Source: Dechloromonas sp. ZY10 (GTDB lineage Bacteria; Pseudomonadota; Gammaproteobacteria; Burkholderiales; Rhodocyclaceae). Taken from it: a DNA stretch of 64,000 nucleotides. The stretch lies in the NCBI RefSeq assembly GCF_041378895.1, contig NZ_CP144212.1:3271501-3335500 (forward strand). Direction: 5' to 3'. Positions 11,616 to 59,513 of this stretch are shown one piece after another. Numbering within the stretch: the first letter of the stretch is position 1; the number at the start of each line of letters is the position of its first letter. Position numbers and translations under genes: made by a program. The notes under the pieces were generated by a model that did not search any database, was not told where the DNA came from, and saw nothing but the letters and a program-made list of their open reading frames with translations.

Positions 11616-11674
11616 TTTTCCCTCCGTTTTTGACAAGAAAAAGAATAACAGAGACAGTCACTTGCCTCAAATTA

Positions 11675-12181: not shown

Positions 12182-13053
12182 TTGTAAAACCTCTGTTCTC
12201 CGGCTGGCCGGGTTTTGAAACGTTTGTGCAACCAGAAGTACTGTTCCGGCATTTTCAGGACTTCAGACTCGATGAAGCGGTTCATGAACTCGGCATCAGC
12301 CTCGATGCTGGCTCCGGGAAAATTTTCCCAGGCCGGCTGCAACTCGACCTCGTAACCGTCAGCCACCTGGCGCGTGATGCAGGGCACGACCCGGGCACCG
12401 GTCAAGCGAACCAGCCGCGACAATGCCGGGATAGTAGCCGCCTGCACCCCGAAAAAGGATGAAAAAATCGATTCTTTCGGCCCGAAATCCATATCCGGCA
12501 GATAGTAGAAGGGATAACCCTCCTTCAGGTACTTGACCACCTTGCGCAGCCCCTCCTGGCGGGATGCCAGCTGCGACGGATTGAAACGCATCCGCCCCGT
12601 ATACAGCAAACGGTTCAGGACCGGGTTTTTCTGGTTCGAGTAGACGCTGCATACCGGCGTCTCCATCGTCATCCGCGTACCGCCAGCATCGAGGCCGACG
12701 AAATGTGGCGCCAGCAGGATCGTCGGCCGCCCGTCAGCAGAACGCAAATGCTCGCCCCCACGCAGGCGAATCAGGCGTTCGAGGCGGCAGCGCGGCGCCC
12801 ACCAGCCCAGCGTACGATCAAGTACGGCCTGAGCAAAGGCAACAAAATGCCGCCGCGCCAGTTGTTCACGGTCAACTTCGCTCAAGGTCGGAAAACACAG
12901 GCGCAGGTTGGTCAGTGCCACTTGCCGCCGCTCACGGCCAAAACGGTACAAAAGATGCCCGAGAGCCGCCCCCAGGGCGCGCAGCCAGCGCAGCGGCAGC
13001 CAATGTAACCACCACAGCAAACCCAGTCCGCAATACGTTGCCAGTTTTTTCAC
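12178..13053 (-). CDS. LpxL/LpxM-family lipid A acyltransferase (second copy)
   Basis: A 291-aa inner-membrane-associated acyltransferase. The start is GTG 13053, which overlaps the stop of the preceding gene (GTGA); no better start exists without a long overlap. It has an N-terminal hydrophobic anchor (CGLGLLWWLHWLPLRWL), the catalytic H-x4-D motif in APHFVGLDAGG, the FNPSQLASRQEGL segment, and PDMDFGPKESIFSSFFG near the middle. The family adds secondary acyl chains to Kdo-lipid A. Together with the adjacent paralogue it may supply both secondary acylations. Which one is laurate- or myristate-specific cannot be told from sequence. Confidence 0.82.
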   Translation of the reverse strand: MKKLATYCGLGLLWWLHWLPLRWLRALGAALGHLLYRFGRERRQVALTNLRLCFPTLSEVDREQLARRHFVAFAQAVLDRTLGWWAPRCRLERLIRLRGGEHLRSADGRPTILLAPHFVGLDAGGTRMTMETPVCSVYSNQKNPVLNRLLYTGRMRFNPSQLASRQEGLRKVVKYLKEGYPFYYLPDMDFGPKESIFSSFFGVQAATIPALSRLVRLTGARVVPCITRQVADGYEVELQPAWENFPGASIEADAEFMNRFIESEVLKMPEQYFWLHKRFKTRPAGEQRFYK

Positions 13054-23745: not shown

Positions 23746-24519
23746 TTAACGGTTCTTGAACACCGGCTTGCGTTTTTCGACGAAGGCAGACATCCCTTCC
23801 TTCTGGTCTTCCAGCGCGAAGGCCGAATGGAAGGTGCGGCGCTCGAAGAGCAAGCCCTCGTTGAGCGAGGACTCGTAGGCACGATTGACCGACTCCTTGA
23901 TCATCATGATCACCGGCAGCGAGAAGCCGGCAATGGTCTGCGCCGCCTTGAGGGTGTCTTCGAGCAGTTGCTCGGCCGGGATCACGCGCGCGACCAGGCC
24001 GCTCTTCTCGGCTTCGGCTGCGTCCATCATGCGGGCCGTCAGGCACAAGTCCATCGCCTTGGCCTTGCCGACCGCGCGCGGCAGGCGCTGCGTACCGCCG
24101 GCACCGGGCATGGTGCCGAGCTTGATTTCGGGCTGGCCGAACTTGGCGGTATCGGCGGCAAAGATCATGTCGCACATCATCGCCATTTCACAGCCACCGC
24201 CGAGCGCGAAGCCGGCCACCGCTGCGATCACCGGCTTGCGGGCGGTCTTGATCCGCTCCCAGTTGCGGGTAATGAAGTCGGTTTTGTAGGCGTGCATGTA
24301 ATCGAAGTCCTTCATGAAGCCGATATCGGCCCCGGCAGCAAAGGCCTTTTCGCTGCCGGTCAGCACGATGCACCCGATGTTTTCGTCGGCCTCGAAGGTA
24401 TCGACAGCGGCGGCAATACCATCCACCACATCGTTATTCAGCGCATTCAGGGCTTCCGGACGGTTGATGCGAATCAGGCCCACTTTGCCGTGGACTTCGG
24501 TTAAAACGACTTGCGTCAT
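23746..24519 (-). CDS. paaF: Enoyl-CoA hydratase (PaaF-type)
   Basis: A 257-aa crotonase-fold enzyme; start ATG 24519 with GGAG nine bases upstream. It has the oxyanion-hole segments AFAAGADIGFM and AGFALGGGCEMAM, the catalytic Glu pair region QPEIKLGTMPGAGGTQRLPR, and the C-terminal LNEGLLFERRTFHSAFALEDQKEGMSAF. In the phenylacetate pathway PaaF hydrates 2,3-dehydroadipyl-CoA. It is the last gene of the minus-strand paa run but is separated from the binding-protein gene by a strong terminator, so its expression may depend on read-through or an unseen promoter. It could also be a general short-chain enoyl-CoA hydratase. Confidence 0.85.
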   Translation of the reverse strand: MTQVVLTEVHGKVGLIRINRPEALNALNNDVVDGIAAAVDTFEADENIGCIVLTGSEKAFAAGADIGFMKDFDYMHAYKTDFITRNWERIKTARKPVIAAVAGFALGGGCEMAMMCDMIFAADTAKFGQPEIKLGTMPGAGGTQRLPRAVGKAKAMDLCLTARMMDAAEAEKSGLVARVIPAEQLLEDTLKAAQTIAGFSLPVIMMIKESVNRAYESSLNEGLLFERRTFHSAFALEDQKEGMSAFVEKRKPVFKNR

Positions 24520-24532
24520 CTGTGTGTTCTCC

Positions 24533-24567
24533 AAAAAAAAGGCCGCCCGAGGTTGCCCCCGGCGGCC
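24533..24567 (-). terminator. Intrinsic terminator between the LivK-type gene and paaF
   Basis: On the minus strand GGCCGCC (24567-24561) pairs with GGCGGCC (24547-24541), followed by an uninterrupted run of eight T (24540-24533). The T-run abuts the paaF Shine-Dalgarno. It probably sets a high ratio of binding protein to PaaF. Confidence 0.88.
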
Positions 24568-24585
24568 CAAGTCGAATGATTTCTG

Positions 24586-25803: not shown

Positions 25804-27009
25804 TCAAATCCGCTCAATCACCATCGCAATTCCCTGCCCGACGCCGATACACATGGTGCACAAGGCGTAACGACCGTTGCGCCGCTGCAGTTCGTATAAG
25901 GCAGTCGTCACGAGACGGGCGCCGCTCATCCCGAGGGGATGCCCCATCGCAATCGCTCCGCCATTGGGATTCACGTGGGGCGCATCGTCGGCCAGACCGA
26001 GGTCGCGCAGCACAGCCAGTGCTTGTGCAGCAAAAGCCTCATTGAGTTCGATCACATCCATTTGCTCAAGCCGCAAGCCGGTCTGCGCCAAGACCTTGCG
26101 CACCGCTGGGGCCGGACCAAAGCCCATGATCCTCGGTGCCAGGCCGGCACTCGCCATGCCGACCACGCGGGCGCGCGGCGTCAGGCCGTACTTGCCGGCG
26201 GCAGCTTCAGAGGCAATCAGCAAGGCGCAAGCGCCATCATTGACCCCGGAGGCATTGCCGGCGGTCACCGTCAGCTCCGGGCCATTGACGCCCTTGAGCT
26301 TGGCCAGCTGCGCCAGCGTCGTTTCCGGGCGCGGGTGTTCGTCACGGTCGACCACCAGCGGCTCGCCTTTTTTCTGCGGGATCAGCACCGGAGTCAATTC
26401 ATCGGCAAAACGTCCTGCCGCATCGGCCGCCGCCCAGCGCTGCTGGCTGCGCAGCGCGAAGGCGTCCTGGTCGGCACGGTTGATACTGAACTCTTCGGCG
26501 ACGTTATCGGCCGTCTGCGGCATCGAATGCGTGTCGTAGAGCTTTTTCATCAGCGGATTGGGGAAGCGCCAACCGATGGTCGTGTCATAGATCGAGGCCT
26601 GGCGCGACCAGGCAGTTTCCGCCTTGCCCATCACGAACGGTGCCCGCGACATGCTCTCGACCCCACCGGCCAACATCAGCGAAGTCTCGCCGGCCTTGAT
26701 CGAGCGGGCGGCCAGCCCGACCGCGTCCATTCCCGAGCCACACAGGCGGTTGACCGTGGTGCCCGGCACCTCGACCGGCAGGCCGGCCAGCAGGCCGGAC
26801 ATCCGGGCGACGTTACGGTTGTCCTCACCGGCCTGGTTGGCGCAGCCGTAGATGATGTCCTCGACGGCCGCCCAGTCCACCTGCGGATTGCGCTCGATCA
26901 GCGCCTTGAGCGGAATGGCGCCGAGATCGTCGGCCCGCACCCCGGCCAGGGCACCACCGTAACGGCCAATCGGAGTACGAATCGCGTCACAGATAAAAGC
27001 TTGAGTCAT
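25804..27009 (-). CDS. paaJ: 3-oxoadipyl-CoA / 3-oxo-5,6-dehydrosuberyl-CoA thiolase
   Basis: A 401-aa thiolase with nucleophilic Cys in NRLCGSGMDA, the ELNEAFAAQ segment, catalytic His in NPNGGAIAMGHPLG and second Cys in LCTMCIGVGQG. Length equals that of PaaJ/PcaF. In the phenylacetate pathway it acts twice, releasing acetyl-CoA from the C8 intermediate and later from 3-oxoadipyl-CoA. PcaF of the protocatechuate branch is nearly identical in sequence type, so the name rests on its position after paaK. Confidence 0.92.
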   Translation of the reverse strand: MTQAFICDAIRTPIGRYGGALAGVRADDLGAIPLKALIERNPQVDWAAVEDIIYGCANQAGEDNRNVARMSGLLAGLPVEVPGTTVNRLCGSGMDAVGLAARSIKAGETSLMLAGGVESMSRAPFVMGKAETAWSRQASIYDTTIGWRFPNPLMKKLYDTHSMPQTADNVAEEFSINRADQDAFALRSQQRWAAADAAGRFADELTPVLIPQKKGEPLVVDRDEHPRPETTLAQLAKLKGVNGPELTVTAGNASGVNDGACALLIASEAAAGKYGLTPRARVVGMASAGLAPRIMGFGPAPAVRKVLAQTGLRLEQMDVIELNEAFAAQALAVLRDLGLADDAPHVNPNGGAIAMGHPLGMSGARLVTTALYELQRRNGRYALCTMCIGVGQGIAMVIERI

Positions 27010-27099: not shown

Positions 27100-28425
27100 C
27101 TACTGTTGCTTGGGCCGCTCGTCGAGAACGCGGCGGGCCTTGCCGACCTGGGTACGCGGAATCGAATCGAATTCCATCACCGTCACCCGGGTGGTGACGC
27201 CGATAATTGTCTTGATCCGGTGCTGCAGCTCCTTACCCACCGCCTGTACCTGCTCCGGCGTCAAGGCACTGGACTGGGCACTCTGCAACTCACAACGCAC
27301 TTCGAGGTTGTCGAGATGCCCATCGCGGGTCACCACCACCTGATAATTCCCGCTCAGACGCGGGTCGCGCAGGATCTGCTCCTCAATCTGGGTTGGGAAC
27401 ACATTGACCCCGCGAATGATCAGCATGTCGTCGGAACGCCCGGTGATCTTGTCGATGCGACGGAAGGCGCGGGCAGTCGGCGGCAGCAGACGGGTCAGGT
27501 CACGGGTGCGGTAGCGGATGACCGGGAAGGCTTCCTTGGTCAGCGAGGTGAACACCAGTTCCCCTTCTTCGCCATCGGGCAGGACTTCGCCGGTTTCCGG
27601 ATCGATGATTTCCGGATAGAAGTGGTCTTCCCAGATCACCGGGCCGTCCTTGGTCTCGATGCACTCGTTGGCCACCCCCGGCCCCATCACTTCGGTCAGA
27701 CCATAGATGTCGATCGCGTCGATCCCGAGCTTGCGCTCGATTTCGGCGCGCATGCCCTGCCCCCAGGGTTCGGCACCAAAAATGCCGACTTTCAGCGAGA
27801 TTTCCTCGGGGGAGATACCCAACCGCTCGAACTCTTCGGCGATTACCAGCGAATATGACGGCGTGACCATGATCGCATCCGGCTTGAAATCCATGATCTG
27901 CTGCACCTGCTTCTCGGTCTGGCCGCCGGACATCGGCACCGCGATGCAGCCGGCACGCTCAATCCCGTAATGCGCCCCCAGACCGCCGGTGAACATTCCG
28001 TAGCCGTAGGCGTTGTGCACCATGTCACCGGGACGCAGGCCGGAAGCGCGCAACGAGCGGGCGACGACGTTGGCCCAGTGATCCAGGTCATTCTTGGTGT
28101 AACCAACCACCACCGGCTTGCCAGTGGTGCCGCTCGATGCATGCAGGCGGGCCAGCTTGTTGCGCGGTACGGCAAACAGCCCGAAGGGATAGTGATCGCG
28201 CAGGTCGGTCTTGGTCATGAACGGGAACTTGGCCAGATCCTCTAGGCGCTGCAGATCGTCCGGATGCACGCCCTTGGCGATGCACTTCTGGCGGTACGGC
28301 TCGACGTTATCGTAGGTATGGCGCACCGACCATTTCAGGCGCTCCAGCTGCAAGGCCGAAATCTCGTCGCGGCTGGCGGTTTCGATCGGCTCCAGGTCGC
28401 CGGGTAGGGGCTTCTTGACGGGCAT
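27100..28425 (-). CDS. paaK: Phenylacetate-CoA ligase
   Basis: A 441-aa adenylate-forming enzyme making phenylacetyl-CoA, the entry step. Motifs: FMTKTDLRDHYPFGLFAVP, HASSGTTGKPVVVGYT (ATP-phosphate loop), IFGAEPWGQGMRAEIE, DIYGLTEVMGPGVANEC, and the C-terminal TGRSDDMLIIRGVNVFPTQIE hinge. Length is typical (430-440). It lies between paaI and paaJ, 30 and 90 bases apart. Confidence 0.96.
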   Translation of the reverse strand: MPVKKPLPGDLEPIETASRDEISALQLERLKWSVRHTYDNVEPYRQKCIAKGVHPDDLQRLEDLAKFPFMTKTDLRDHYPFGLFAVPRNKLARLHASSGTTGKPVVVGYTKNDLDHWANVVARSLRASGLRPGDMVHNAYGYGMFTGGLGAHYGIERAGCIAVPMSGGQTEKQVQQIMDFKPDAIMVTPSYSLVIAEEFERLGISPEEISLKVGIFGAEPWGQGMRAEIERKLGIDAIDIYGLTEVMGPGVANECIETKDGPVIWEDHFYPEIIDPETGEVLPDGEEGELVFTSLTKEAFPVIRYRTRDLTRLLPPTARAFRRIDKITGRSDDMLIIRGVNVFPTQIEEQILRDPRLSGNYQVVVTRDGHLDNLEVRCELQSAQSSALTPEQVQAVGKELQHRIKTIIGVTTRVTVMEFDSIPRTQVGKARRVLDERPKQQ

Positions 28426-28455: not shown

Positions 28456-28926
28456 TTATTTGGCGTCCGCTGCTTGCAGGCCGGCAATCACCTCGCCGCT
28501 GATGCGGTAAGACTTGCCCCGGAACAGCGCCACGGTCCGCCCGCCGGCAATGCGCACGGTGACGTCGTAGACGCCGGTGCGCCCGGCCGCCGATTGCTCG
28601 ACGGCCTCGGCCTCAAGCAACTCGCCCTCTTTGGCCGGGGCGAGAAAGTCGATATGGCAGGCCGAAGCCACCGTATTGCGGTTGTAGCTGTTGCAGGCGT
28701 AGGCAAAGGCGGTATCGGCCAGGCTGAAGATCATCCCGCCATGGCAGATGTGGTGACCATTGACCATGTCGCGGCGTACCGGCATGGTCAGCAGTGCGGC
28801 ACCGGGCTGAACACGGACGATGGCGATCCCCAGCGCCTGCGCCGCGTGGTCACGCGACCACATCGCCTTGGCGGTTTCGTCGGCCAGCGCCTGCGCGGCG
28901 AGGGGGTCGAGTGGAGCATCAGTCAT
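28456..28926 (-). CDS. paaI: Phenylacetyl-CoA-pathway thioesterase PaaI
   Basis: A 156-aa hot-dog-fold thioesterase; start ATG 28926, which overlaps the end of paaH by 8 bases. The family motif GHHICHGGMIFSLADTAFAYACN is present, including the catalytic Asp. PaaI hydrolyses dead-end ring-hydroxylated phenylacetyl-CoAs and frees CoA. It sits in the conserved paaG-H-I-K order. Confidence 0.93.
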   Translation of the reverse strand: MTDAPLDPLAAQALADETAKAMWSRDHAAQALGIAIVRVQPGAALLTMPVRRDMVNGHHICHGGMIFSLADTAFAYACNSYNRNTVASACHIDFLAPAKEGELLEAEAVEQSAAGRTGVYDVTVRIAGGRTVALFRGKSYRISGEVIAGLQAADAK

Positions 28927-30451
28927 GAATCTTTCTTCCGGCAAATACCGCTTGGTGCAGCAAGGGCGAAATACGGTAGCGATCTTCGCCATAGCTGTCG
29001 GCGAGATTGGCCAGCACGTCACGCACTGCGGCGACGCCGATCTGGTCCGCCCAGGCCAGCGGCCCTTGCGGATAATTGACGCCGAGACGCATCGCCTGGT
29101 CGGCACCGGCGGCGCTGCATACCCCTTGATTGACTGCATCAGCCGCCTCGTTGGCGAGCATCGCCACTGTTCGCATCACGGCCAGGCCGGGAACGTCGGC
29201 AAAGCGCGAGACCTGGAAACCCGCTGCCTGCAACAAGCCCACCGCAGCATTAACCGCTGCCATCTCGGCTTGGGTTGCGGCGGCCAGGGCCAGCCGGGTG
29301 GACTTGGCATAGTCCAGGGCGAGGTCGAGCAGCACGCAATTGCCGATACCGGTTTCGGCAGCTCGGCGGGTCGCGCTGCGCCCGTCGGTCACATAGAGCA
29401 CGGCACCGTCGGCTTCGGCAACCCGGCCGTCGGCGCTCACCTGCTGCGTGTAAGCCACGCCGGCAGCGGCCAAACGGGCGGCCAAGGCATTGGCCACGGT
29501 AGACGTGCCACAAATGGTGATTTTGCCCGGGACGGGCTGGGCAGCTTCGCTCGCGGCAACCGGTTTGGCGGCGCCTTCGCGGTAGTCGTAGAAACCGCGT
29601 CCGTTCTTGCGGCCATAGAACCCGGCATCGACCAGTTCCTGCTGCAGCAACGACGGCAAAAAGCGCTGGTCGTTGTAGAACGCCCGCCAGACCGAGTTGG
29701 TCACCGCAAAATTGACGTCGTGCCCGATCATGTCCATCAGCTCGAACGGCCCCATGCGGAAACCGCCGGCCTCGCGGCAGCAGGCGTCGATGGTCGCGTA
29801 GTCGGCCGCGCCTTCCTGCGCCAGGCGCAGGGCCTCGGCGTAATACGGGCGGGCGACGCGATTGACGATGAAACCCGGTGTCGACTTGGCATGCACTGGG
29901 GTTTTGCCCCAGGCGGCCGCAGTCGCAAATAAGGTCTCCGCCACTGCGCGCTCGGTGGCCAGACCGGAAACGATCTCGACCAGCGCCATCAACGGTGCGG
30001 GATTGAAAAAGTGCAAGCCAGCCAGCCGTTCCGGGCGCTTGAGCGCGGCGCCGATGGCGGTGACCGAAATCGACGAGGTATTGGTGCCGAAAATGCAGTC
30101 GGCGCCAACGATGACTTCAAGATCGGCGTAGAGCTTCTGCTTGGCTTCGAGGTTTTCGACAATCGCCTCGACCACCAGTGCGCAATCGGCAAGTTCGGCC
30201 AGTTCGCTGACCGGTTGCAGCCGTGCGCCAGCCGCAGCGGCGGCTTCCACGGTCAACTTGCCTTTTTCGGCCATTTTCGCGAACTGGGCGCGAATGCCTT
30301 CGACGGCTTTTTCGGCTGCGCCCGGACGGTTATCGAGCAGCTTGACCGGATGCCCGGCCTGGGCCGCGACCTGGGCGATCCCGGCGCCCATCGCACCGGT
30401 TCCGACCACCGCAACCACGGCCTCCGGCGCCAACGGATTGGCGTGCGTCAT
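28919..30451 (-). CDS. paaH: 3-hydroxyadipyl-CoA dehydrogenase
   Basis: A 510-aa long-form dehydrogenase. Start ATG 30451 has GGAG seven bases upstream; an ATG two codons earlier overlaps paaG but is too close to that ribosome site. Rossmann loop VVGTGAMGAGIAQVAAQAGHPV, GTNTSSISVTAI, HFFNPAPLM with the catalytic His, and a second C-terminal 3HCDH domain (AVMRTVAMLANEAADAV, LGVNYPQGPLAWADQIG). This long form with duplicated C-terminal domains is the PaaH type. It oxidises 3-hydroxyadipyl-CoA to 3-oxoadipyl-CoA. Confidence 0.95.
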   Translation of the reverse strand: MTHANPLAPEAVVAVVGTGAMGAGIAQVAAQAGHPVKLLDNRPGAAEKAVEGIRAQFAKMAEKGKLTVEAAAAAGARLQPVSELAELADCALVVEAIVENLEAKQKLYADLEVIVGADCIFGTNTSSISVTAIGAALKRPERLAGLHFFNPAPLMALVEIVSGLATERAVAETLFATAAAWGKTPVHAKSTPGFIVNRVARPYYAEALRLAQEGAADYATIDACCREAGGFRMGPFELMDMIGHDVNFAVTNSVWRAFYNDQRFLPSLLQQELVDAGFYGRKNGRGFYDYREGAAKPVAASEAAQPVPGKITICGTSTVANALAARLAAAGVAYTQQVSADGRVAEADGAVLYVTDGRSATRRAAETGIGNCVLLDLALDYAKSTRLALAAATQAEMAAVNAAVGLLQAAGFQVSRFADVPGLAVMRTVAMLANEAADAVNQGVCSAAGADQAMRLGVNYPQGPLAWADQIGVAAVRDVLANLADSYGEDRYRISPLLHQAVFAGRKIHD

Positions 30452-30453
30452 GC

Positions 30454-31260
30454 TCATTCTCCGGTGAATTGCGGTGCGCGCTTTTCCATGAAGGCGGCGA
30501 CGCCTTCTGCGTAATCCGGCGACCAGCCGAGTTCGCGCATGAAGCTGCCCTCGAAGGACAATTGCTGCTCCAGCGTGTGACCCAGACCGGCGTGCATCGC
30601 CTGACGGGTACGCACCAGCGCTTTGGTCGGTGCCGTCGCCAGTTGTGCAGCCAGCGCATCGATACGGGCGGCAAAGGCCTCGTCCTCGACGCATTCCCAG
30701 ATCAGGCCCCACTGCGCGGCCTTTTCCGCCGGCAGCTTGTCGGCGAGCAGCGCCAGGCCCATCGCCCGCGCCATGCCCACCCGTTGCGGCAGGAACCAGG
30801 TGCCGCCGGTATCGGGGATCAGGCCGATCTTGGAAAACGCCTGCAGGAAGGAGGCCGACTTGGTCGCCACCACCAGATCGCAGGCCAGCGCTACCGACGC
30901 ACCGGCGCCGGCGGCGATGCCGTTCACTGCGGCGATGGTCGGCACGCGCAGGTTCTGCAGACGCAGCACCAAAGGCTTGTAGTTGCGCTCGACGGTGTTA
31001 CCGATGTCGGGCATCTTGCCTTCCTTGATCTGCATCGCGCGGTCGCCGAGGTCCTGGCCGGCGGAGAAGCCACGTCCGGCCCCGCTCAACACCAGCACGC
31101 GGGCAGCGGCAGCTTCGCCGCGACCGGACTGGATCGCATCCAGCGCATCGCGCAGTTCGGCGTGCATGGCATCGGTAAAACTGTTCAGCTTGTCGGGACG
31201 ATTGAGGGTCAGGCGGGCAATGCCGCCCTCGACGGTGAATTGAATATTTTCGTAGTTCAT
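30454..31260 (-). CDS. paaG: Ring 1,2-epoxyphenylacetyl-CoA isomerase
   Basis: A 268-aa crotonase-fold enzyme; start ATG 31260. It has GRGFSAGQDL, NGIAAGAGASVALACDL and the PaaG-type IGLIPDTGGTWFLPQRVG segment with the Asp used for isomerisation instead of the hydratase Glu. It converts the epoxide to the oxepin and also isomerises a double bond later. Its presence implies that an epoxidised phenylacetyl-CoA is made in this cell, although paaABCDE are not in the window. Confidence 0.94.
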   Translation of the reverse strand: MNYENIQFTVEGGIARLTLNRPDKLNSFTDAMHAELRDALDAIQSGRGEAAAARVLVLSGAGRGFSAGQDLGDRAMQIKEGKMPDIGNTVERNYKPLVLRLQNLRVPTIAAVNGIAAGAGASVALACDLVVATKSASFLQAFSKIGLIPDTGGTWFLPQRVGMARAMGLALLADKLPAEKAAQWGLIWECVEDEAFAARIDALAAQLATAPTKALVRTRQAMHAGLGHTLEQQLSFEGSFMRELGWSPDYAEGVAAFMEKRAPQFTGE

Positions 31261-31314
31261 GTTCTCTGTCCGGGGGCTGGGCGGTTGCCGGCAGGGCCGC
31301 AACCGCCCACGGGA

Positions 31315-32982
31315 TTAGACGTGGTAGCGACGCTGGACGACACGGAAGCGGTTGGCGACGAAGGCCGAGTCGGCATACGAGGCATTCGCTGCCGGGTTGC
31401 CGCCGGTACCGTGGTAATCGGAGAAAGCTGCCGACTGGTTCACGAACACGCCGCCGGTCAGGTTGATCGAGAGCGCGACCTTGGAGCGCCAGGTAGCCTC
31501 GGTCATCGCTTCGATCACCGCTTCACTGGTCGAGTAGAGGCCGGCCGTCAGCGCGCCGTGGGTGCTGACGATGCGCTCGGACAAGGCAATCGCCGCCGCC
31601 GTGTCGGCAACCTTGACGATGAAGCTGATCGGGCCGAAGCGCTCTTCCATGTAGGCGGCTTCGTCAGCCGCATCGCAGGCGAGCAGCACCGGGGTGCGTA
31701 CTTCGGCCTGCGGGAACTCCGGGTTCTCCAGCTTGCTCGACGCCAGGACCACCTTGCCCAATGAACCGCTGTCAGCCTCGACGATCCGCTTCAGGGTATC
31801 GGCCGACTGCACCGCGCCGAGCACGGCGTGCGCCACTTCCGGCTTGGCCAGGAAGCCGCTGACCGCCTGCGCCAGATCGGCACAGAATTCGTCGTAGGAC
31901 TTGTGCCCCTGGTCGGTCTCGATGCCACCAGCCGGCACGAACAGTGCCTGCGAGGTGGTGCACATCTGGCCCGAGTACAGCGCCAGGGTGAAGGCCAGAT
32001 TGCCGAGCATGCGCTTGTAGCTGTCAGTCGAGTCGACCACGATGTTGTTGACCCCGGCCAGTTCGGCATAAACCTGCGCCTGGCGGCAGTTGTCGATCAG
32101 CCACTGACCGAAGACGTTGCCGCCGGTGAAGTCGATCGACTTGACCTTGGCATGCGTCACCAGCTTCTGCGTGGTGGCGCGGTCGTTGGCGACCGCCAGC
32201 GTGACCAGGTTGGCATCGAGGCCGTTTTCAGCCAGTACGGCACGGATGGTGCGCACCGTGATCGCCGCCGGCAGGATGGCGTTGCTGTGCGGCTTGACGA
32301 TCACCGCATTGCCGGTTGCCAGCGCGGCGAACAGACCAGGATAGGTATTCCAGGTCGGGAAGGTGCCGCAACCGACGACCACGCCGATACCGCGCCCGAC
32401 GACTTCGAAGTGTTTTTTCAGGACCAGCGGCGGATTTTTGCCCTGCGGCTTTTCCCAGACCGTTTCGGCCGGCACGAAAGCCTGCTCGCGGTAGGCATAA
32501 GCCACCGCCTCCAGGCCGCGATCCTGGGCGTGCGGAGCACCGGCCTGGAAGGCCATCATCCAGCCCTGGCCGGTGGTCATCATCACTGCATGCGCCAGCT
32601 CAAAACTCTGCTGATTCAAGCGCTGCAGGATTTCGAGACAGACACCGGCCCGGCCGTCGGCGCCGATTCTCTGCCAACCGCCCATCGCAGCCTCGCCGGC
32701 GGCAATCAGCGCCTCGATGTCGCACACCGGGTATTGCACGCCCAGTTCAACGCCGTAAGGCGACTTTTCACCGCCGTGCCAATCCTTCTGTCCCGGCTGC
32801 CCAAGTTCGAAACGCTGCCCGAGATGGGCTTCGTAAGCCTTTTTGCCGTCTTCCGGCGCAGTTTCGCCATAGAGCTTGGGGCTCGGCATCTCGGGATATG
32901 CGGACCAGTAGCCACGGCTGGCGATCGCGCTCAAGGCGCCATCGAGGGTCGCGCGATGCTTTTCGAGCAGCGGATGGGACAT
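31315..32982 (-). CDS. paaN: PaaN-type aldehyde dehydrogenase (ring-cleavage side product, no hydratase domain)
   Basis: A 555-aa aldehyde dehydrogenase. Start ATG 32982 follows AGGAGG by six bases. NAD-site and catalytic segments: GCGTFPTWNTYPGLFAAL, FTGGNVFGQWL, catalytic Cys in YSGQMCTTSQAL, and C-terminal INLTGGVFVNQSAAFSDYHGTGGNP. It matches the PaaN form, which lacks the C-terminal MaoC-like hydratase domain of E. coli PaaZ (681 aa). The oxepin-CoA hydrolase step must therefore be supplied by a separate enzyme not obvious here. First gene of the minus-strand paa operon. Confidence 0.92.
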   Translation of the reverse strand: MSHPLLEKHRATLDGALSAIASRGYWSAYPEMPSPKLYGETAPEDGKKAYEAHLGQRFELGQPGQKDWHGGEKSPYGVELGVQYPVCDIEALIAAGEAAMGGWQRIGADGRAGVCLEILQRLNQQSFELAHAVMMTTGQGWMMAFQAGAPHAQDRGLEAVAYAYREQAFVPAETVWEKPQGKNPPLVLKKHFEVVGRGIGVVVGCGTFPTWNTYPGLFAALATGNAVIVKPHSNAILPAAITVRTIRAVLAENGLDANLVTLAVANDRATTQKLVTHAKVKSIDFTGGNVFGQWLIDNCRQAQVYAELAGVNNIVVDSTDSYKRMLGNLAFTLALYSGQMCTTSQALFVPAGGIETDQGHKSYDEFCADLAQAVSGFLAKPEVAHAVLGAVQSADTLKRIVEADSGSLGKVVLASSKLENPEFPQAEVRTPVLLACDAADEAAYMEERFGPISFIVKVADTAAAIALSERIVSTHGALTAGLYSTSEAVIEAMTEATWRSKVALSINLTGGVFVNQSAAFSDYHGTGGNPAANASYADSAFVANRFRVVQRRYHV

Positions 32983-33045
32983 GAACAACCTCCTCGGGGG
33001 AAATACGTTTTTATGGGAACAGGCAAATCGCTTCTGTCAGATGTC

Positions 33046-33074
33046 ACGTTACGAAGTAATGCAATTACTGTCAA
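33046..33074 (-). promoter_or_regulatory. Likely promoter of the paaN operon
   Basis: On the minus strand TTGACA (33074-33069), a 17-base spacer and TAACGT (33051-33046). The spacer contains a 13-base palindrome GTAATgcaATTAC (33056-33068), well placed for a repressor. The divergent region 32983-33353 is strikingly AT-rich against the GC-rich surroundings and contains no credible gene. Confidence 0.6.
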
Positions 33075-33257
33075 TACAATGTATCACTACAAGGCATGAC
33101 GGACAACATTCTACAAAGAGGAAATAATTCCGACAACAAAGTATTTACTTATAAAAAACATACAACTAACCAACCAACAATCAGCAGATTTTGCGGAATT
33201 TTTTTTCTACAAACCAGTGGCCGCTTTCAAAAAAACCAACATCTGATACAAAAAGTA

Positions 33258-33284
33258 TTGACAATTTGCCGCGCGGTGTAACAT
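33258..33284 (+). promoter_or_regulatory. Likely promoter of the diiron oxygenase operon
   Basis: TTGACA (33258-33263), a 15-base spacer and TAACAT (33279-33284), followed directly by TGATTCAC, which resembles half of the PaaX operator known from E. coli (TGATTC). Like the paaN promoter its -35 lies in GTATTGACA, suggesting a common regulator. Confidence 0.5.
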
Positions 33285-33353: not shown

Positions 33354-34382
33354 ATGGCTAGCAACAAGGAAAAATTTGCCGACAAGATGGAATTCCCGCC
33401 GGAAACCGTTCAGCCGAACGTCTATCCGCTGTCCTGGCATTCGCACACCAAGAAACTGCAGGAAGTCTGGGAAGCCGCCCTGCGCGAGAACTGGGACCCG
33501 GAAAAGCTGCCCTGGGACACCCTGGACGTCGACAGCTACTCTTGGGAAGAGCGTGAATCCATCGCCTATTGGTGGACCCTGCTGTCGGTCTTCGACGCCT
33601 CCGCCCCCCCGGTGTTTGCCGAAGCGCTGATCAAGACCTATGAAGTGCATGAAGAAGACCCGGTGCGCAAGTGCTTCTTCTCGGTCACCCGCGACGAACA
33701 GAACCACGAAATCATGTGCGGTCTGGCCATCACCAAACTGCTCGGCCATTCCGACCCGCTGACCTACCAGCCGAAGACCGAACTCGGCAAGCGCCTGCAG
33801 AAGAACGCCCAGTGGCTGTACTTCAACGGCGGCCGTTACTGGACCGGCTACAAGCAGGCCGTACCCAAGTATGACTTGGCGGTATTGTTCAGCTCCTTCC
33901 TGATGGGCGAAATCGCTGCCGCGACCATCTTCAAGCAGATGTACGACAACTCCCGCGAAGCCGTCTTCAAGGAAGGCTTCAAGAACATCGGCCGCGACGA
34001 AGGCCGCCACATGGCGATCTGCATGGCCGTGATGGAGCGCGACTACCCGAAAATGGGCCCGGAAAACAAGGCCGTGATCACCAAGCAGATCCGCGCTGGC
34101 TACCTGTTCCTGTCGGCCGTCCTGTTCGAGCCGCCGATGGAATTCTGGGACCTGCCCGCCGACTTCATCGCCAACCAGCGCGAAGCCGAGGAAGTTGCCC
34201 GTGCCGCCGGTTTTGGCATCCCGACCTACGAAGCCAAGAAGGAAAACTGGCGCAACGCGATCATCAACCTGAAGGGCGTGCTGGATCGCTTCAACATTCC
34301 GTTCCCGGCGATCCCGGAAGTCGGCATCACCGGCCAGGAAATTTCCGATCTCGAAATGGAAGACATCATCCCGGTCTTCTAA
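33354..34382 (+). CDS. Single-subunit carboxylate-bridged diiron protein, candidate phenylacetyl-CoA oxygenase
   Basis: A 342-aa ferritin/R2-like protein. Start ATG 33354 follows AGGAGG. Four-helix ligands are visible: E115-x-x-H118 (DEQNH), E186 (MGEIAAA), E216-x-x-H219 (DEGRH), and a first-helix acidic residue, D81 or E90. No third His four residues before E216, so it is not AurF-like. It does not resemble PaaA, PaaC or BoxB, and there is no signal peptide. It is followed by a dedicated reductase and paaX, and is divergent from the paa operon at the place where paaABCDE would be expected. Activation of O2 by the diiron pair with electrons from the reductase is expected from the family; epoxidation or hydroxylation of phenylacetyl-CoA is a hypothesis from context. 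A role in a related aromatic or in oxidative protection cannot be excluded. Confidence 0.75.
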   Translation: MASNKEKFADKMEFPPETVQPNVYPLSWHSHTKKLQEVWEAALRENWDPEKLPWDTLDVDSYSWEERESIAYWWTLLSVFDASAPPVFAEALIKTYEVHEEDPVRKCFFSVTRDEQNHEIMCGLAITKLLGHSDPLTYQPKTELGKRLQKNAQWLYFNGGRYWTGYKQAVPKYDLAVLFSSFLMGEIAAATIFKQMYDNSREAVFKEGFKNIGRDEGRHMAICMAVMERDYPKMGPENKAVITKQIRAGYLFLSAVLFEPPMEFWDLPADFIANQREAEEVARAAGFGIPTYEAKKENWRNAIINLKGVLDRFNIPFPAIPEVGITGQEISDLEMEDIIPVF

Positions 34383-34405
34383 TATTCCGCACTGATCCTG
34401 CCATG

Positions 34406-34431
34406 GCCGGCACACCTCCGGGTGTGCCGGC
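34406..34431 (+). promoter_or_regulatory. Strong hairpin between the diiron gene and its reductase
   Basis: Perfect 11-bp stem GCCGGCACACC (34406-34416) / GGTGTGCCGGC (34421-34431) with a UCCG loop closed by C-G, followed by only three T. Too weak in T to be a full terminator; more likely a 3'-end stabiliser or partial attenuator keeping oxygenase above reductase. Confidence 0.6.
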
Positions 34432-34473
34432 TTTGCCGCAACAGAGAAACCACTAACAATAAGGGGAAGAGCA

Positions 34474-35523
34474 ATGGCTCGTATCGTGATGCAACCCTCA
34501 GGCAAATCGGTCGAATGCGCTTATGGCGACACCGTGCTGATGGCACTGGAAAAAGCAGGTTATGCCCTGCCCAACAACTGCCGTGCCGGCGCCTGCGGCG
34601 AGTGCAAGGTCAAGGTCACCTCCGGCCAGTTCGATCAGGGCATGGTGCTCGACATGGCGCTCTCGCAGGACGAGCGGAAACAAGGCTACGGCCTGATGTG
34701 CATGGCCAAGCCGATTTCCGACGAGTTGACCATCGAATGGGGCACCGAGGACGCCAAGCCCAAACTCTTCCCACCGCGTGAAGATGCCCTGTTTGTCGTG
34801 ATCGACAAGAAGTCAGTCGCCGCCCGCGTCGTCGAACTGCGCCTGCGTCCGGTCGGCCAGCCGATCCGCTATTGGCCCGGGCAATACGTCACCCTAGGCA
34901 ATCCGCGCGAGAACATTCCCGCCCGCGCCTACTCGATTTCCAACCCGCCCCGCCCGGATGGCGAACTGGTGCTGCAGATTGCCCGTGCCGAAGACGGCGT
35001 TACCAGCAACTGGGTGCACGACACGCTGCAAATCGGCGATAACGTCAAGATTTCGGGCGCCTACGGTACTTTTATCGGCGACCCGTCGGTCGACACTCCA
35101 GTCCTTTGCCTTGCAGCCGGCACCGGTCTGGCACCGATTCTTGCCCTGGCCGAAGCTGCATTGCGCCGGGGTTTCAAGAAGCCGGTGGCAATGGTCGTCT
35201 CGGCACGCAGCCGGGCAGACGTCTACAGCCAGGGGATGATGGCCTGGTGGCGCACCAAGCACCGCAACTTCGACTACAAGATCACTCTGACCCGCGAGGA
35301 AGCCGAAGGTTATCTGGCCGGAAGAATCGGTACGGTCCTGCCGAAGCTGTTCCCGGATCTGTCAAAACACACCATCTTTGCTGCCGGCAGCCCGGAATTT
35401 GTCGATGCCTGCGTCGCCGCCGTCAAACAACTCGGCGCCAAGGATGAGCTGATCCATGTAGAAGGTTTCTTCGCCCAGCAACAACCCGTCGTGGCCGACG
35501 ACGACCATTTGCTGAAGCTTTAA
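34474..35523 (+). CDS. NAD(P)H:2Fe-2S flavin oxidoreductase (oxygenase reductase component)
   Basis: A 349-aa electron-transfer protein. Order of domains: plant-type 2Fe-2S ferredoxin at the N-terminus (C36, C41, C44, C76), FAD-binding barrel with R151-A-Y-S motif (RAYSISNPP), and NAD-binding domain with AAGTGLAP at 214-221 and a C-terminal AGSPEFVDA segment. This order is that of MmoC, DmpP and TmoF; PaaE has the ferredoxin at the other end. It should pass electrons from NAD(P)H to the diiron protein encoded 92 bases upstream. The adjacent hairpin suggests lower expression than the oxygenase. Confidence 0.9.
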   Translation: MARIVMQPSGKSVECAYGDTVLMALEKAGYALPNNCRAGACGECKVKVTSGQFDQGMVLDMALSQDERKQGYGLMCMAKPISDELTIEWGTEDAKPKLFPPREDALFVVIDKKSVAARVVELRLRPVGQPIRYWPGQYVTLGNPRENIPARAYSISNPPRPDGELVLQIARAEDGVTSNWVHDTLQIGDNVKISGAYGTFIGDPSVDTPVLCLAAGTGLAPILALAEAALRRGFKKPVAMVVSARSRADVYSQGMMAWWRTKHRNFDYKITLTREEAEGYLAGRIGTVLPKLFPDLSKHTIFAAGSPEFVDACVAAVKQLGAKDELIHVEGFFAQQQPVVADDDHLLKL

Positions 35524-35554: not shown

Positions 35555-36568
35555 ATGGGTAACATGCGCGGTTTGCCCGCTGCGACTCATTTCGTGATCC
35601 CGTCCGTCAAACAGCGGCTGGACGACTTCCGGCAACAGAAGCGCGTTCAGGCCGGCTCCCTGATCATTTCCGCCTTTGGCGACGCCGTCGTGCCACGCGG
35701 CGGCCGCATCTGGCTGGGCAGCCTGATCCGCCTGCTGGAACCGCTCGAACTCAACGAACGCCTGATTCGCACCTCGGTCTTCCGCCTGGCCAAGGAGGAG
35801 TGGCTGCGCACCGAAAGCGTTGGCCGGCGGGCCGATTACGTCCTGACCCATTCCGGCAGAAGACGCTTCGACGAAGCCTCGCGGCATATTTATGCATCGC
35901 ACTCCCCGCTCTGGGACCGCCGGTGGCGGCTGATCCTGTCGGTTGGCGAACTCGACGCCCGCGACCGGGAAAAACTGAAACGCGCCCTGTTCTGGCAAGG
36001 CTTCGGCGCCCTGGGCAACGAGTGCTTCGTACATCCCAGCGCCGACCTCACCGCCGCTTTTGACGCTCTGGTCGCGGAAGGACTGGGCGAATTACTCGAC
36101 CGCTTGATGCCGCTGTTGGCGGTCGACTCCCGTGCCGGCCTGTCGGCCAACGATGCCGATCTGGTGCGCCGAGCCTGGGACCTGGAAGAACTGGGCGAAG
36201 CCTATGCCGGTTTTGTCGCGACCTATCTGCCGATTCTCGCCGAGCTACGCCAGGAACGGGAGGCCGGCATTGGCGAGGAAGACGCTTTCCTGGTCCGCCT
36301 GCTACTGATCCACGACTACCGCCGCCTGCTGCTGCGCGACCCTGAACTCCCCGATGTCCTACTGCCCAGCGACTGGCCGGGTCAGAAAGCCCGCCTGCTC
36401 TGCCGCGAGCTCTACCGGCGCCTGGCCGGCGCCTCGGAAAGCCATCTCGACCGCGTGTTGCAACTCGCCGATGGCAGCACGCCGACCTACGACCCCGCCT
36501 ACAACGAACGCTTCCCCCAGGACGACCCGCTGCCTGGCGGAAACCAATCCCTGCCGCCAGAGCGCTAA
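35555..36568 (+). CDS. paaX: Phenylacetate-operon repressor PaaX
   Basis: A 337-aa GntR-like transcription regulator. An N-terminal winged helix (SLIISAFGDAVVPRGGRIWLGSLIRLLEPL, ERLIRTSVFRLAKEEWL) is followed by the PaaX-specific middle (WDRRWRLILSVGEL, LFWQGFGALGNECFVHPS) and a C-terminal ligand domain (LLIHDYRRLLLRDPELPDVLLPSDWPGQKARLLCRELY). In E. coli PaaX represses paa genes until phenylacetyl-CoA binds. Located directly behind the diiron/reductase pair, it ties that pair to phenylacetyl-CoA control. Its stop overlaps that of the convergent TRAP gene by 4 bases. Confidence 0.94.
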   Translation: MGNMRGLPAATHFVIPSVKQRLDDFRQQKRVQAGSLIISAFGDAVVPRGGRIWLGSLIRLLEPLELNERLIRTSVFRLAKEEWLRTESVGRRADYVLTHSGRRRFDEASRHIYASHSPLWDRRWRLILSVGELDARDREKLKRALFWQGFGALGNECFVHPSADLTAAFDALVAEGLGELLDRLMPLLAVDSRAGLSANDADLVRRAWDLEELGEAYAGFVATYLPILAELRQEREAGIGEEDAFLVRLLLIHDYRRLLLRDPELPDVLLPSDWPGQKARLLCRELYRRLAGASESHLDRVLQLADGSTPTYDPAYNERFPQDDPLPGGNQSLPPER

Positions 36569-40439: not shown

Positions 40440-41057
40440 TCAACCGGCTCCTTTTTTCAACGCAACCAGAGGCACCACATCGGGAATACTGATCCGCGGC
40501 CGTTCGGCCTCGATAGCCGTCAGCGGAGCACACTCGACCATGGTGGCCAGGCTACGCCGGGCCAGGTCCTGATAGGTCTGCGTTCCCTGCCCCTTCCAGG
40601 CAATTTCCTCATCCGACAATTCGCGGATCACCCGAGCCGGCGAACCAGCCGCCAGACTACGCGCCGGAATCTCCGCTGCCGCTTTGACAAAGGCGCTGGC
40701 GGCAACAATCGCTGACTCGCCGATCACCGCATTATCCATGATCACTGCGTTCATCCCGACCAGCGCATTGCGCCCGACACGACAGCCGTGCAGCACCGCA
40801 CCATGCCCGATATGGCCATCCTCTTCGACCACCGTATCGGTTCCCGGGAAACCGTGCATCACGCAGGTATCCTGCAGGTTGGCGCCGCGCTCCAGAATCA
40901 ATCGACCAAAATCACCGCGCAAGCAGGCACAAGGCCCGACATAGCACCCCGGCCCGACGATCACGTCACCGATCAGCACTGCCGAGGGATGCACAAACGC
41001 CGTCGGGTCGACGACGGGAACAATGCCATCGATGGCAAAAACACGTAAAGGCAACAT
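40440..41057 (-). CDS. paaY: PaaY, left-handed beta-helix protein (gamma-carbonic-anhydrase-like thioesterase)
   Basis: A 205-aa protein aligning along its length with E. coli Paa[106 protein letters not shown]. The hexapeptide-repeat His ligands for a metal are in [20 protein letters not shown]. PaaY hydrolyses side-product CoA thioesters of the pathway. Start ATG 41057 chosen from GGAG upstream and alignment; an ATG five codons earlier is possible. It is divergent from the iclR gene, with 81 bases between. Confidence 0.93.
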
Positions 41058-41108
41058 TCCTCGAATCTCCATGACATGACCAGACGGAATTCTATAAAAT
41101 AAAACCAG

Positions 41109-41123
41109 TTTCGTATTTGGAAA
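41109..41123. promoter_or_regulatory. Candidate operator between paaY and the IclR gene
   Basis: TTTCGTATTTGGAAA, an imperfect palindrome in the 81-base divergent promoter. It shares the TTTCG word with the inverted repeat before the LivK-type gene. IclR proteins commonly bind palindromes in their own promoters, so autoregulation is plausible. Confidence 0.35.
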
Positions 41124-41138
41124 TTTTGGAGAATTCAG

Positions 41139-41930
41139 ATGAGCGAAGAACTGGAAGGTAAACACGGCGTCCAGTCCCTGGAAATCGGCATGAGCATCCT
41201 CCGCGCGATGGTCAACGGCCAGCGCTCGATGATGCTCAAGGATATTGCTGCGGCAGCCGACATGCCGGCGTCGAAAGCCCACCGCTACCTGGTCAGCCTG
41301 ATCCGGGCCGGACTGGTAGAACAGGACCCGCTGACCTCGCGCTACGACCTTGGCGGTTTCGCGCTGAATATCGGTCTGGTCGCCATCGACCGGCTCGATC
41401 GCGTGCGCCTCGGATTATCCGAGATCGCCCGCCTGCGCGACGAAATCAACGAGACCACCGCGCTCGCAGTGTGGAGCGAGAACGGTCCGGTGATCGTCCG
41501 CTGGGAACGCCCGCGCCGGGCAATCACGGTCAATGTGGTTACCGGCACGGCTCTGCACATCCTCAATTCGGCGAGCGGGCGGATATTCGCTGCCTGGCTG
41601 AAGAATGACACGGTCGACCGCCTGATTGGCCAGGAATTGAAAAACAAGAAACTGCCGCCACACCTGCAAACCCGCACCCAGGTCGAACAAATGCTGGCCC
41701 AGGTACGCCAGGATGGCTATTGCGCCCTCTCCGACTATTACATGGCCAGCGGCGTTGAAGCTGTCGCCGCCCCGGTTTTCAACTTCCGCAACGAAATCAC
41801 GATGGGGATTGTGGTCGTCGGCGTCAAAGGCATGTTCGACATGAGCCCGGACAGCCAGGTGGTCTCCGCATTGCGCCGCTCGGCCAGCGCATTGTCGCAA
41901 CGCCTGGGAGCCACCGGTCACCCTGCCTGA
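41139..41930 (+). CDS. IclR-family transcription regulator
   Basis: A 263-aa regulator with an N-terminal winged helix ([53 protein letters not shown], about 10-70) and a C-terminal GAF-like effector domain ([57 protein letters not shown]). It is not PaaR (TetR type). Flanked by paaY (divergent) and the livHMGF operon (same strand, 200 bases away), it is the obvious candidate regulator of aromatic-acid uptake. Confidence 0.92.
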
Positions 41931-55606: not shown

Positions 55607-56401
55607 CTAATACGCCGCGCCACCCGCCGCCGTCTGCCCGGCAGCCTTGAATTTGTCAGCCAGCGCCACTGCCGAGTTACGCAGCAGCAAGGCGTCGACA
55701 CCGACCAGCAGGAAGCTGGCACCGATCTGCCGGTAGGCTTCGGCGGCGGCCGGATCGGCCGAGAAAACGCCGGCAGCGAGGCCGGCGGCGGAAATCTTGC
55801 GGATGGCGCCTTCGACCGCCGCCTTGACTTCCGGGTGGCCCGGATTGCCGAGATAGCCCATCGATGCGGCCAGGTCGGAGGGGCCGATGAACACGGCATC
55901 GACGCCCTCAACCTGAAGAATCTCGTCGATGGCGGCGAGGCCGGTGGTCGATTCGATCTGCACGATCAGGCACATTTCCTGGTCGGCCTGGGCGAAGTAG
56001 CCGTTCACGCCGTTCCAGCGCGCGGCACGGGCCATTGCGGTGCCGACGCCACGGATGCCGTTGGGCGGGTAGCGCATGGCGCGCACCAGCTTTTCGGCAT
56101 CGGCAGCGGATTCGACCATCGGCACCATCAGCGTCTGGGCGCCGCCGTCGAGCAGTTGCTTGATCCGCGCCACGTCGTGGTCGACGGTGCGCACCACCGG
56201 CCGTACCGGGTACGGCGCCAGCGCCTGCAGCTGGGCGATGATCGTGCGCAGGTCGTTGGGGCCGTGCTCGCCGTCGATCAGCAGCCAGTCGAAGCCGGTG
56301 GTGGCGACGACTTCGGCGGTGTAGGCGTTGGCCAGGCCGAGAAAGAGGCCGATCTGCGTTTCACCGGCAGCCAGCGCGCGCTTGAATGTATTGAGGGGCA
56401 T
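55607..56401 (-). CDS. hpaI: 4-hydroxy-2-oxoheptanedioate aldolase
   Basis: A 264-aa class II pyruvate aldolase splitting the C7 intermediate into pyruvate and succinate semialdehyde. It aligns with E. coli HpaI: IGLFLGLANAYTAEVVATTGFDWLLIDGEHGPND (catalytic His), PVVRTVDHDVARIKQLLDGGAQTLMVPMVESAADAE, RYPPNGIRGVGTAMARAARWN, QIESTTGLAAIDEILQVEGVDAVFIGPSDLAASMGY with metal-binding Glu and Asp. Start ATG 56401; a GTG two codons before it is possible. Last gene of the hpa operon; its stop abuts the repeat region. Confidence 0.94.
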   Translation of the reverse strand: MPLNTFKRALAAGETQIGLFLGLANAYTAEVVATTGFDWLLIDGEHGPNDLRTIIAQLQALAPYPVRPVVRTVDHDVARIKQLLDGGAQTLMVPMVESAADAEKLVRAMRYPPNGIRGVGTAMARAARWNGVNGYFAQADQEMCLIVQIESTTGLAAIDEILQVEGVDAVFIGPSDLAASMGYLGNPGHPEVKAAVEGAIRKISAAGLAAGVFSADPAAAEAYRQIGASFLLVGVDALLLRNSAVALADKFKAAGQTAAGGAAY

Positions 56402-56433
56402 GTCCACGGTCGACGTCCTTTATCCCGGCAAAA

Positions 56434-57237
56434 TCAGACAAAACGGGCAGTGATGTTGCCCAGCGGGCCGTAATCGACGTGGATGGTATCACCCGGCGCG
56501 ACCTTGACCGGACGGGTGAAGGAGCCGGCGAGGATGATCTGGCCCGGTTCCAGCGCCACGCCGTGCGGCGCGAACTTCTTGGCCAGCCAGACGATACCGT
56601 TGGCCGGATGGTTCAGGACACCGGCGGCGACGCCGGTTTCCTCGATCACGCCGTTCTTGTAGAGCAGCGCGGCGGCCCAGCGCAGGTCGATGTCCATCGG
56701 CTTGATCGGGCGACCGCCGAGGATGATGCCGACGTTGGCGGCGTTGTCGGAAATGGTGTCCATCACCTTGCGCGGCCGCTTGGTTTCCGGATCGATGCGA
56801 TGGCAGCGGGCATCGATGATCTCGACCGCCGGCACCACGTAATCGGTGGCCGAGAGCACGTCGAAGATGGTGACGTTCTCGCCTTCCAGGCGATCCTTGA
56901 GGATGAAGGCCAGCTCGACCTCGACCATCGGGTCGATGAAGCGCGAGCAGGGAATGTCGCTGGCATCTTTGTAGACCATCTCGTCGAGCAGGGTGCCGAA
57001 GTCCGGCTCGTTGATCTGCGACGACATCTGCATGGCGCGCGAGGTCAGGCCGATCTTGTGGCCGACGACCTTCTGGCCCTCGGCCAGCTTGATCTGGACC
57101 CAGGCTTTCTGGATCGCGTAGGCGTCCTCGATGGTGATTTCCGGGTGGTCGAGCGAAATCTGGCGCACCGGCTGGCGGGCCTGTTCGGCGGCGTGCAGGC
57201 GCTGGGCGGCGGCCTGAATGATGTCTTGGCTGAGCAT
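56434..57237 (-). CDS. hpaH: 2-oxo-hept-4-ene-1,7-dioate hydratase
   Basis: A 267-aa hydratase of the HpaH/MhpD family: [70 protein letters not shown] with the metal-ligand Glu pair, and [39 protein letters not shown]. It adds water before the aldolase step. 32 bases separate it from hpaI and 15 from hpaF. Confidence 0.95.
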
Positions 57238-57252
57238 GTTGATTCTCCTCTG

Positions 57253-57648: not shown

Positions 57649-57682
57649 GTTCCTCTCCAGATAGTTCTTTTACGGTCGACGC

Positions 57683-58579: not shown

Positions 58580-58643
58580 GTTTGTCTCCCTTATCCTTTG
58601 GAAATTGGCTTCTCTGCGGGGTTGACCGTGGCTTTACGCTCTT

Positions 58644-59492: not shown

Positions 59493-59513
59493 GATTGTCT
59501 CCTCCGTGCGTCC

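Follow-up and report, generated by a model that had tools for sequence, protein, structure and literature searches.

Which enzyme forms the ring epoxide in a phenylacetate (paa) gene cluster that lacks paaABCDE? The question is raised by a 64,000-nucleotide stretch of the genome of Dechloromonas sp. ZY10 (Rhodocyclaceae; contig NZ_CP144212.1, positions 3,271,501 to 3,335,500 of the forward strand), hereafter the window. In the aerobic phenylacetate pathway, PaaABCDE is regarded as the enzyme of the entry step, and PaaA and PaaC are its recommended genomic markers. An initial annotation of the window identified paaX, paaY, and paaN-G-H-I-K-J-F without paaABCDE and proposed that a single diiron protein and a reductase, here denoted DI and RED, act in place of the missing epoxidase. 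Our analysis suggests, with a probability of roughly 0.8, that DI and RED together constitute a diiron oxygenase of two components, which depends on O2 and NAD(P)H and would epoxidize the ring of phenylacetyl-CoA, i.e., carry out the PaaABCDE step without homology to PaaABCDE.

The DI and RED proteins

DI (33354..34382, plus strand) encodes a single diiron-type (ferritin-like/AurF-like) protein of 342 amino acids (aa), the proposed oxygenase component, and begins with an ATG codon directly preceded by GGAGGAG. RED (34474..35523, plus strand) encodes a 349-aa reductase with the order 2Fe-2S, FAD, NAD, the proposed electron-transfer component, and is followed by paaX (35555..36568); all three open reading frames (ORFs) are present as first described. 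The G+C content at third codon positions is 0.82 in DI, 0.74 in RED, and 0.78 in paaX. A GC-rich inverted repeat, GCCGGCACACC...GGTGTGCCGGC, was spotted by eye between DI and RED (34383-34473). The two genes are tightly paired. In a collection of named genomes from 84,980 species, 305 stretches encode a DI relative, and among the best 80 of these, which were kept as named loci, RED directly follows DI in 79; in the remaining locus the contig ends inside DI. Both reading frames are open in 25/25 loci of the Rhodocyclaceae.

Alignment of the window's DI with 99 distinct DI proteins revealed that E115xxH118, E186, and E216xxH219 are invariant in 100/100 rows, and these residues are kept in DI relatives at 47-51% identity. 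The initially proposed ligand set is incomplete, as it omitted a ligand from the first helix, for which D81, E97, E100, and E101, likewise invariant, are several candidates. DI thus has the two ExxH motifs and further conserved carboxylates that characterize ferritin-like diiron carboxylate proteins, and we infer that it carries a diiron site.

Comparison with hidden Markov models of the PaaA, BoxB, and AurF families yielded no DI score over a cut-off. DI scored 22.5 bits against AurF (PF11583; gathering cut-off 29.6), and its assignment as an ordinary AurF was dropped. The AurF and Rubrerythrin models were weakly matched by 17/17 aligned DI members (best AurF E-value 4.5e-6) and the R2 family by 10/17. 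DI had no match to PF05138 (PaaA/PaaC) and none to the BoxB model at E-values up to 1, and homology to either was likewise rejected. A profile search of solved structures with DI returned 0 matches at E-values up to 0.1.

The Pfam domains of RED (Fer2 at residues 7-80, FAD_binding_6 at 114-200, and NAD_binding_1 at 213-313) bear out the MmoC/DmpP-like order that had been assigned to it, and its 2Fe-2S cysteines read from sequence are C36, C41, C44, and C76. The best NCBIfam profile was BenC (152.3 bits), with MmoC at 127.1 bits, relative to equivalog cut-offs of 430 and 500, respectively; BoxA scored 28.9 bits (cut-off 459.2), and the best match in the PDB was the GcoB-like 5ogx. Judged by the models of those families, DI-RED is outside PaaABCDE, BoxAB, and AurF.

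In the proposed reaction, electrons from NAD(P)H would pass through the FAD and the 2Fe-2S cluster of RED to the predicted diiron site of DI, which would activate O2 and put one oxygen atom into the ring of phenylacetyl-CoA. The downstream steps would proceed as usual through PaaG, the ring-opening hydratase, and PaaN.

Association of DI with PaaN and the paa genes

The absence of paaABCDE noted in the window extends to the genome for the subunits searched. The source genome comprises one contig of 3,568,927 bases that is 99.99% complete; a profile search of it returned 0 matches to PF05138 (PaaA/PaaC) and 0 matches to PF06243 (PaaB), while PaaD and PaaE were not searched separately. The initial annotation had regarded a complete paaABCDE set elsewhere in the genome that alone supports growth as one finding that would overturn its proposal; no PaaA/PaaC or PaaB was found. 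DI has a single match in this genome.

To place DI taxonomically, we considered a family sample of 150 genomes. DI matches were detected in 28, comprising 26 full-length proteins, one fragment (G041), and one remote match (G130) with 27% identity in a different kind of cluster. The latter two were omitted, and 26 genomes were counted as carriers. Among genomes drawn from the order, class, and phylum, each draw spread evenly over groups, DI was detected in 9/399 (5 of these from the family), 1/369 (the window itself), and 2/398 (one being the window itself), respectively. Carriers among the best 80 named loci include Dechloromonas, Azonexus, Zoogloea, Paraburkholderia, Achromobacter, Castellaniella, Brachymonas, and the alphaproteobacterium Insolitispirillum.

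DI is strongly tied to PaaN. PaaN over its NCBIfam cut-off was identified in 26/26 carriers relative to 58/150 family genomes overall (hypergeometric 2e-13, a figure that ignores kinship among genomes that are related and whose counts are not independent), and PaaK at 67% identity or more was identified in 26/26. A strong PaaA/PaaC homolog (PF05138 > 250 bits) was present in 14 of the 26 carriers and absent from 12. When the analysis was confined to the 42 genomes with strong PaaN (at least 860 bits, a limit set after the scores were seen), 14 had PaaA/PaaC only, 14 had both enzymes, 12 had DI only, and 2 (G008 and G038) had only a divergent PF05138 protein. The other 16 PaaN genomes comprised one with PaaA/PaaC (G124), one with a divergent PF05138 protein (G029), and 14 with neither enzyme.

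A further set of 22 carrier handles was hand-picked from the 80 named loci and 4 others (G857 and G919 are apparently one genome, and G918 resembles G108). Strong PF05138 matches were present in 10 and not in 12, the latter including Brachymonas denitrificans, two Azonexus hydrophilus, Dechloromonas hortensis, Insolitispirillum peregrinum, and three Castellaniella; these are mostly drafts for which completeness is not given.

Two other arrangements were observed among PaaN genomes. In the loci of G008, G038, and G029 (L169 at 11447-12890, L170, and L171), paaN is accompanied by a single PaaA-like protein that is divergent (PF05138, 73-89 bits) and by paaG-I-J-K or paaG-I-K. Two of the three also have paaY, and none has a match to PaaB-E; L169 has a flavodoxin separating paaN from the PaaA-like protein. 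This arrangement may be another reduced epoxidase. Separately, L064 (8653-13471; G101), L158, L160, L165, and L166 encode a divergent PaaN together with copies of PaaK, with PaaI in all but L166 and no paaG or paaH match, and possibly represent a separate arylacetyl-CoA pathway.

The gene neighborhoods of DI also point to the paa pathway. A paa gene was detected nearby (at 45% identity or more) in 76 of 84 mapped loci (the best 80 of 305 and 4 others) and in none of the remaining 8. Among the 26 family loci, DI-RED lies in or adjoins the paa cluster in 13 and lies outside paa operons in 13. The latter, hereafter outside loci, comprise 11 on another contig or far off and two (G076 and G015) at the far end of a paa-liv cluster, approximately 11 kb from paaA; the neighbors of several were read as argG, argF, and argD. 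In two outside genomes (G096 and G134) the cluster reads paaY-paaN / paaG-H-I-K-TetR-paaJ-liv, with DI-RED on another contig, whereas G057 and G067 have the same order with paaABCDE between paaK and TetR. The three Achromobacter DI-RED pairs have no paa reference match at 45% identity or more within 10 kb, and G1189, the complete genome of a gammaproteobacterium from outside the order, encodes DI without a paa gene nearby.

More distant relatives of DI, at 50-53% identity, were identified in three Variovorax plasmid records. In VAI-C, DI and RED lie in a run of genes on one strand. On one side of them are genes for a MaoC protein that matches PaaZ at its hydratase end, an enoyl-CoA hydratase (ECH) protein with matches to both PaaG and the alternative oxepin-CoA hydrolase, an OB-fold protein, a thiolase, PaaN, a PaaK-like ligase, and a CoA transferase. 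On the other side are a liv transporter and a GlcD-like oxidase and, past a regulator, an indolepyruvate oxidoreductase. The PDNC026 locus resembles that of VAI-C, and the RA8 locus has no PaaN among its listed genes. No PF05138 match was found on the three plasmids, which were searched without the chromosomes. We read the Variovorax cluster as a probable arylacetyl-CoA epoxide/oxepin route with DI-RED as its oxygenase. A still more distant actinobacterial relative (47-49% identity) occurs in Nonomuraea gerenzanensis (L175, 12001-12978), where no match resembling RED was seen across the 25 kb of the locus.

Operators and the organization of the window's cluster

Sites resembling known paa operators precede DI. 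A site of the form TGACCRACCGGTC was identified upstream of DI in 13/13 outside loci. In those 13 genomes the pattern has 24 matches, comprising 13 before DI, 8 before paaN, and 3 elsewhere, relative to 13 for a reversed control. Among the outside genomes with a fetched paaN region (all but G076 and G015), G096 and G134 have a site with one mismatch before paaN. In Burkholderia cenocepacia, the site seen here before DI serves as the PaaR operator (ACCGACCGGTCGGT), and its mutation relieves control (PMC2770484).

In the window, the inverted repeat GATAC-N28-GTAAC lies in the DI promoter (33245..33282, plus strand), and a second PaaX-type repeat lies in the divergent paaN promoter (33048..33085, minus strand). 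Of 71 paaN-DI regions, 68 have a repeat of the form GATAC-N25-29-GTWWC in the DI promoter, and 59 have one in each of the two promoters (61 and 53 of the 64 distinct regions, respectively); base-shuffled means were 0.47 and 0.11 of 71. The PaaX site of Escherichia coli is given as TGATTC(N27)GAATCA and the effector of both PaaX and PaaR as phenylacetyl-CoA (PMC9493321). The GATAC repeat is a putative PaaX-binding site. Within 400 bases upstream of DI (157 in L149) in 23 further carriers, 11 had the GATAC repeat and 2 had the PaaR site. The repeat was also identified in 3/3 Achromobacter DI promoters, and in G1189 it precedes both DI and a distant paaA.

A second element accompanies the PaaR operator. 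An FNR-like TTGAYNNNNRTCAA box lies 28-29 bases from that operator in 12 of the 13 outside loci of the Rhodocyclaceae (e.g., L060, position 2582; shuffled mean 0.06), and its presence suggests that parts of the phenylacetate regulon respond to oxygen. The box was also detected in 3/3 Achromobacter DI promoters and in 0/3 of their fetched paaA regions. These boxes suggest a low-oxygen role for DI-RED. Against it, paaN is preceded by such a box in 10 of the 11 outside genomes for which its promoter was fetched, and the window's own DI promoter has none. Low-oxygen control of the latter promoter was set aside as unsupported, the box occurring in 4 of the 71 paaN-DI regions (shuffled mean 1.8).

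The remaining paa genes of the window are arranged around this promoter region. The paaX repressor gene (plus strand) scored 274.3 bits against TIGR02277 (cut-off 264.55). On the minus strand, divergent from DI, paaN, coding for the ring-opening aldehyde dehydrogenase (31315..32988; TIGR02288, 908.1 bits), is followed by an enoyl-CoA hydratase/isomerase at the position of paaG (30454..31302), paaH (28919..30712), the thioesterase gene paaI (28456..29139), the phenylacetate-CoA ligase gene paaK (27100..28425; TIGR02155, 702.2 bits), paaJ or a 3-oxoadipyl-CoA thiolase gene (25804..27009), a liv substrate-binding protein, and, at the position of paaF, an enoyl-CoA hydratase (23746..24570). On the same strand, paaY lies at 40440..41282. 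Profiles confirmed paaX, N, H, I, K, J, and Y as initially annotated, with over-extended ORF starts for paaH, paaI, and paaY, but the genes assigned as paaG and paaF could be identified only as Pfam ECH_1 proteins. The window also encodes a homoprotocatechuate (hpa) meta-cleavage cluster (55607-63743) with two adjacent HpaD dioxygenase genes. An assignment of DI-RED to the hpa cluster was dropped on the sole basis that carriers track PaaN.

Competing explanations and known systems

Collectively, genetic linkage, the PaaN profile, the PaaR- and PaaX-type operators, the syntenic clusters without paaABCDE, and the Variovorax cluster suggest that DI-RED is an arylacetyl-CoA ring oxygenase, in agreement with the two-component ring oxygenase initially proposed. 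A two-component arylacetyl-CoA epoxidase is the most economical reading of the sequence data, with phenylacetyl-CoA as the probable substrate and its epoxide as the probable product.

Several observations weigh against this interpretation. In G041, the DI-like fragment and a neighboring PaaX-like gene lie on a contig of 4.4 kb, and PaaN was not detected over the cut-off. The p value of a Fisher test of DI versus PaaA/PaaC varies by set, from 0.0027 (40 strong-PaaN genomes, the two with divergent PF05138 proteins omitted) to 0.042 (all 42) and 0.79 (all 58); because it depends on the genome set, the profile alone is no proof of substitution. Neither DI nor strong PaaA/PaaC is encoded in 14 of the 58 PaaN genomes, although in 12 of these the PaaN is more divergent and paaG is not seen next to it (in some cases the contig is short). 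Five family genomes (G001, G024, G035, G085, and G117) combine strong PaaA/PaaC with the lack of a PaaN over the cut-off, which makes PaaN an imperfect marker. Regarding the operators, no PaaR site was matched in the paa locus fetched from G086, 10 of the 23 further carriers have neither operator type within the bases considered, and the paaA regions of the three Achromobacter are without the PaaX-type repeat.

PaaA/PaaC is also kept by 23 of 46 compared DI carriers and by 5/5 further PF05138-matching records (G1189, three more genomes, and one Vitreoscilla plasmid). In correction of the initial proposal, DI-RED is thus not restricted to genomes without paaABCDE, and DI might have a different arylacetyl-CoA as its substrate or work in different circumstances. 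One alternative is that DI-RED oxygenates a different (e.g., substituted) arylacetyl-CoA that is then served by the products of paaG, N, H, and J, in which case DI-only strains would not consume phenylacetate aerobically; our literature search found no usable growth data for DI-only type strains. This alternative is favored by the carriers of both enzymes and by the proximity of DI-RED in Variovorax VAI-C and RA8 to glcD-like and indolepyruvate oxidoreductase genes, which could supply an arylacetyl-CoA from an aryl-2-oxoacid. However, the operators before DI are of types that respond to phenylacetyl-CoA (PMC9493321), and a close PaaK accompanies DI in every family carrier, and we consider a different substrate unlikely.

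Another alternative is that DI-RED is an accessory of the paa regulon, clearing dead-end products for example, and that an unrecognized oxygenase makes the epoxide in DI-only genomes. Two PaaN genomes without DI or strong PaaA/PaaC genome-wide, G078 (L156) and G017 (L159), contain paaY-paaN-paaG, with paaI and paaJ also in L156, and no recognized oxygenase. They count against DI-RED as the general solution and suggest that unrecognized routes may exist. Yet paaABCDE is cleanly missing from G096 and G134, and no other oxygenase was noticed in the mapped paa loci of DI carriers, which were mapped with reference proteins rather than by identifying every ORF or by a whole-genome oxygenase search. 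An accessory function thus appears very unlikely. That the DI-only paa cluster is decaying or used only anaerobically, with DI-RED unrelated to it, is scarcely credible, given open reading frames, an operator in common with paaN, and the constancy of both the PaaN co-occurrence and the DI-RED pairing, even though the species name denitrificans occurs in 3 of the 80 named loci (best 80 of 305).

In a tree of 46 DI proteins (23 from DI-only genomes and 23 from genomes with both enzymes; L153 and L074 were omitted as they resemble G108 and G919, and the five further PaaA/PaaC records lie outside the 46), the label changes at least 8 times, or 3 times when only well-supported branches are counted, and loss and gain are indistinguishable. 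Since half of the carriers hold both enzymes and some PaaN genomes hold neither, replacement is one part of the story. A broader reading, for which we regard the odds as even, is that DI-RED represents a second family of arylacetyl-CoA ring epoxidases with a separate evolutionary origin, which replaced PaaABCDE in some lineages and occurs beside it in others, possibly as a low-oxygen form, with the Variovorax relatives serving other arylacetyl-CoAs.

We found no description of DI-RED in the open-access literature, with subscription papers and preprints outside the search. If the proposed function is correct, the same ring chemistry would have a second evolutionary origin, a two-protein epoxidase would be simpler to express and study than a multi-subunit complex, and surveys based on PaaABCDE would miss bacteria that rely on DI-RED. 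For example, a 2026 survey retained only ligases found together with PaaABCDE (PMC13186573), a filter through which DI-only strains would drop out.

Among known systems, PaaABCDE resembles DI-RED in the proposed step, gene neighbors, PaaX/PaaR-type operators, and use of a flavin/2Fe-2S reductase. In contrast to that complex, DI does not belong to PF05138, there is one oxygenase protein instead of PaaA plus PaaC, PaaB is absent from the genome, and RED has the order Fer2-FAD-NAD, whereas the Fer2 domain comes last in PaaE. BoxAB, the benzoyl-CoA 2,3-epoxidase, is a two-component diiron epoxidase acting on an aryl-CoA, as is proposed for DI-RED, but the 342-aa DI has no BoxB match and RED falls far below the BoxA cut-off. 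AurF (p-aminobenzoate N-oxygenase) and the ferritin-like superfamily share a weak Pfam likeness with DI, which differs in having its own reductase gene and an acyl-CoA context. Finally, reductases of the BenC/MmoC/DmpP type are like RED in domain order and sequence, although RED scores far below their equivalog cut-offs.

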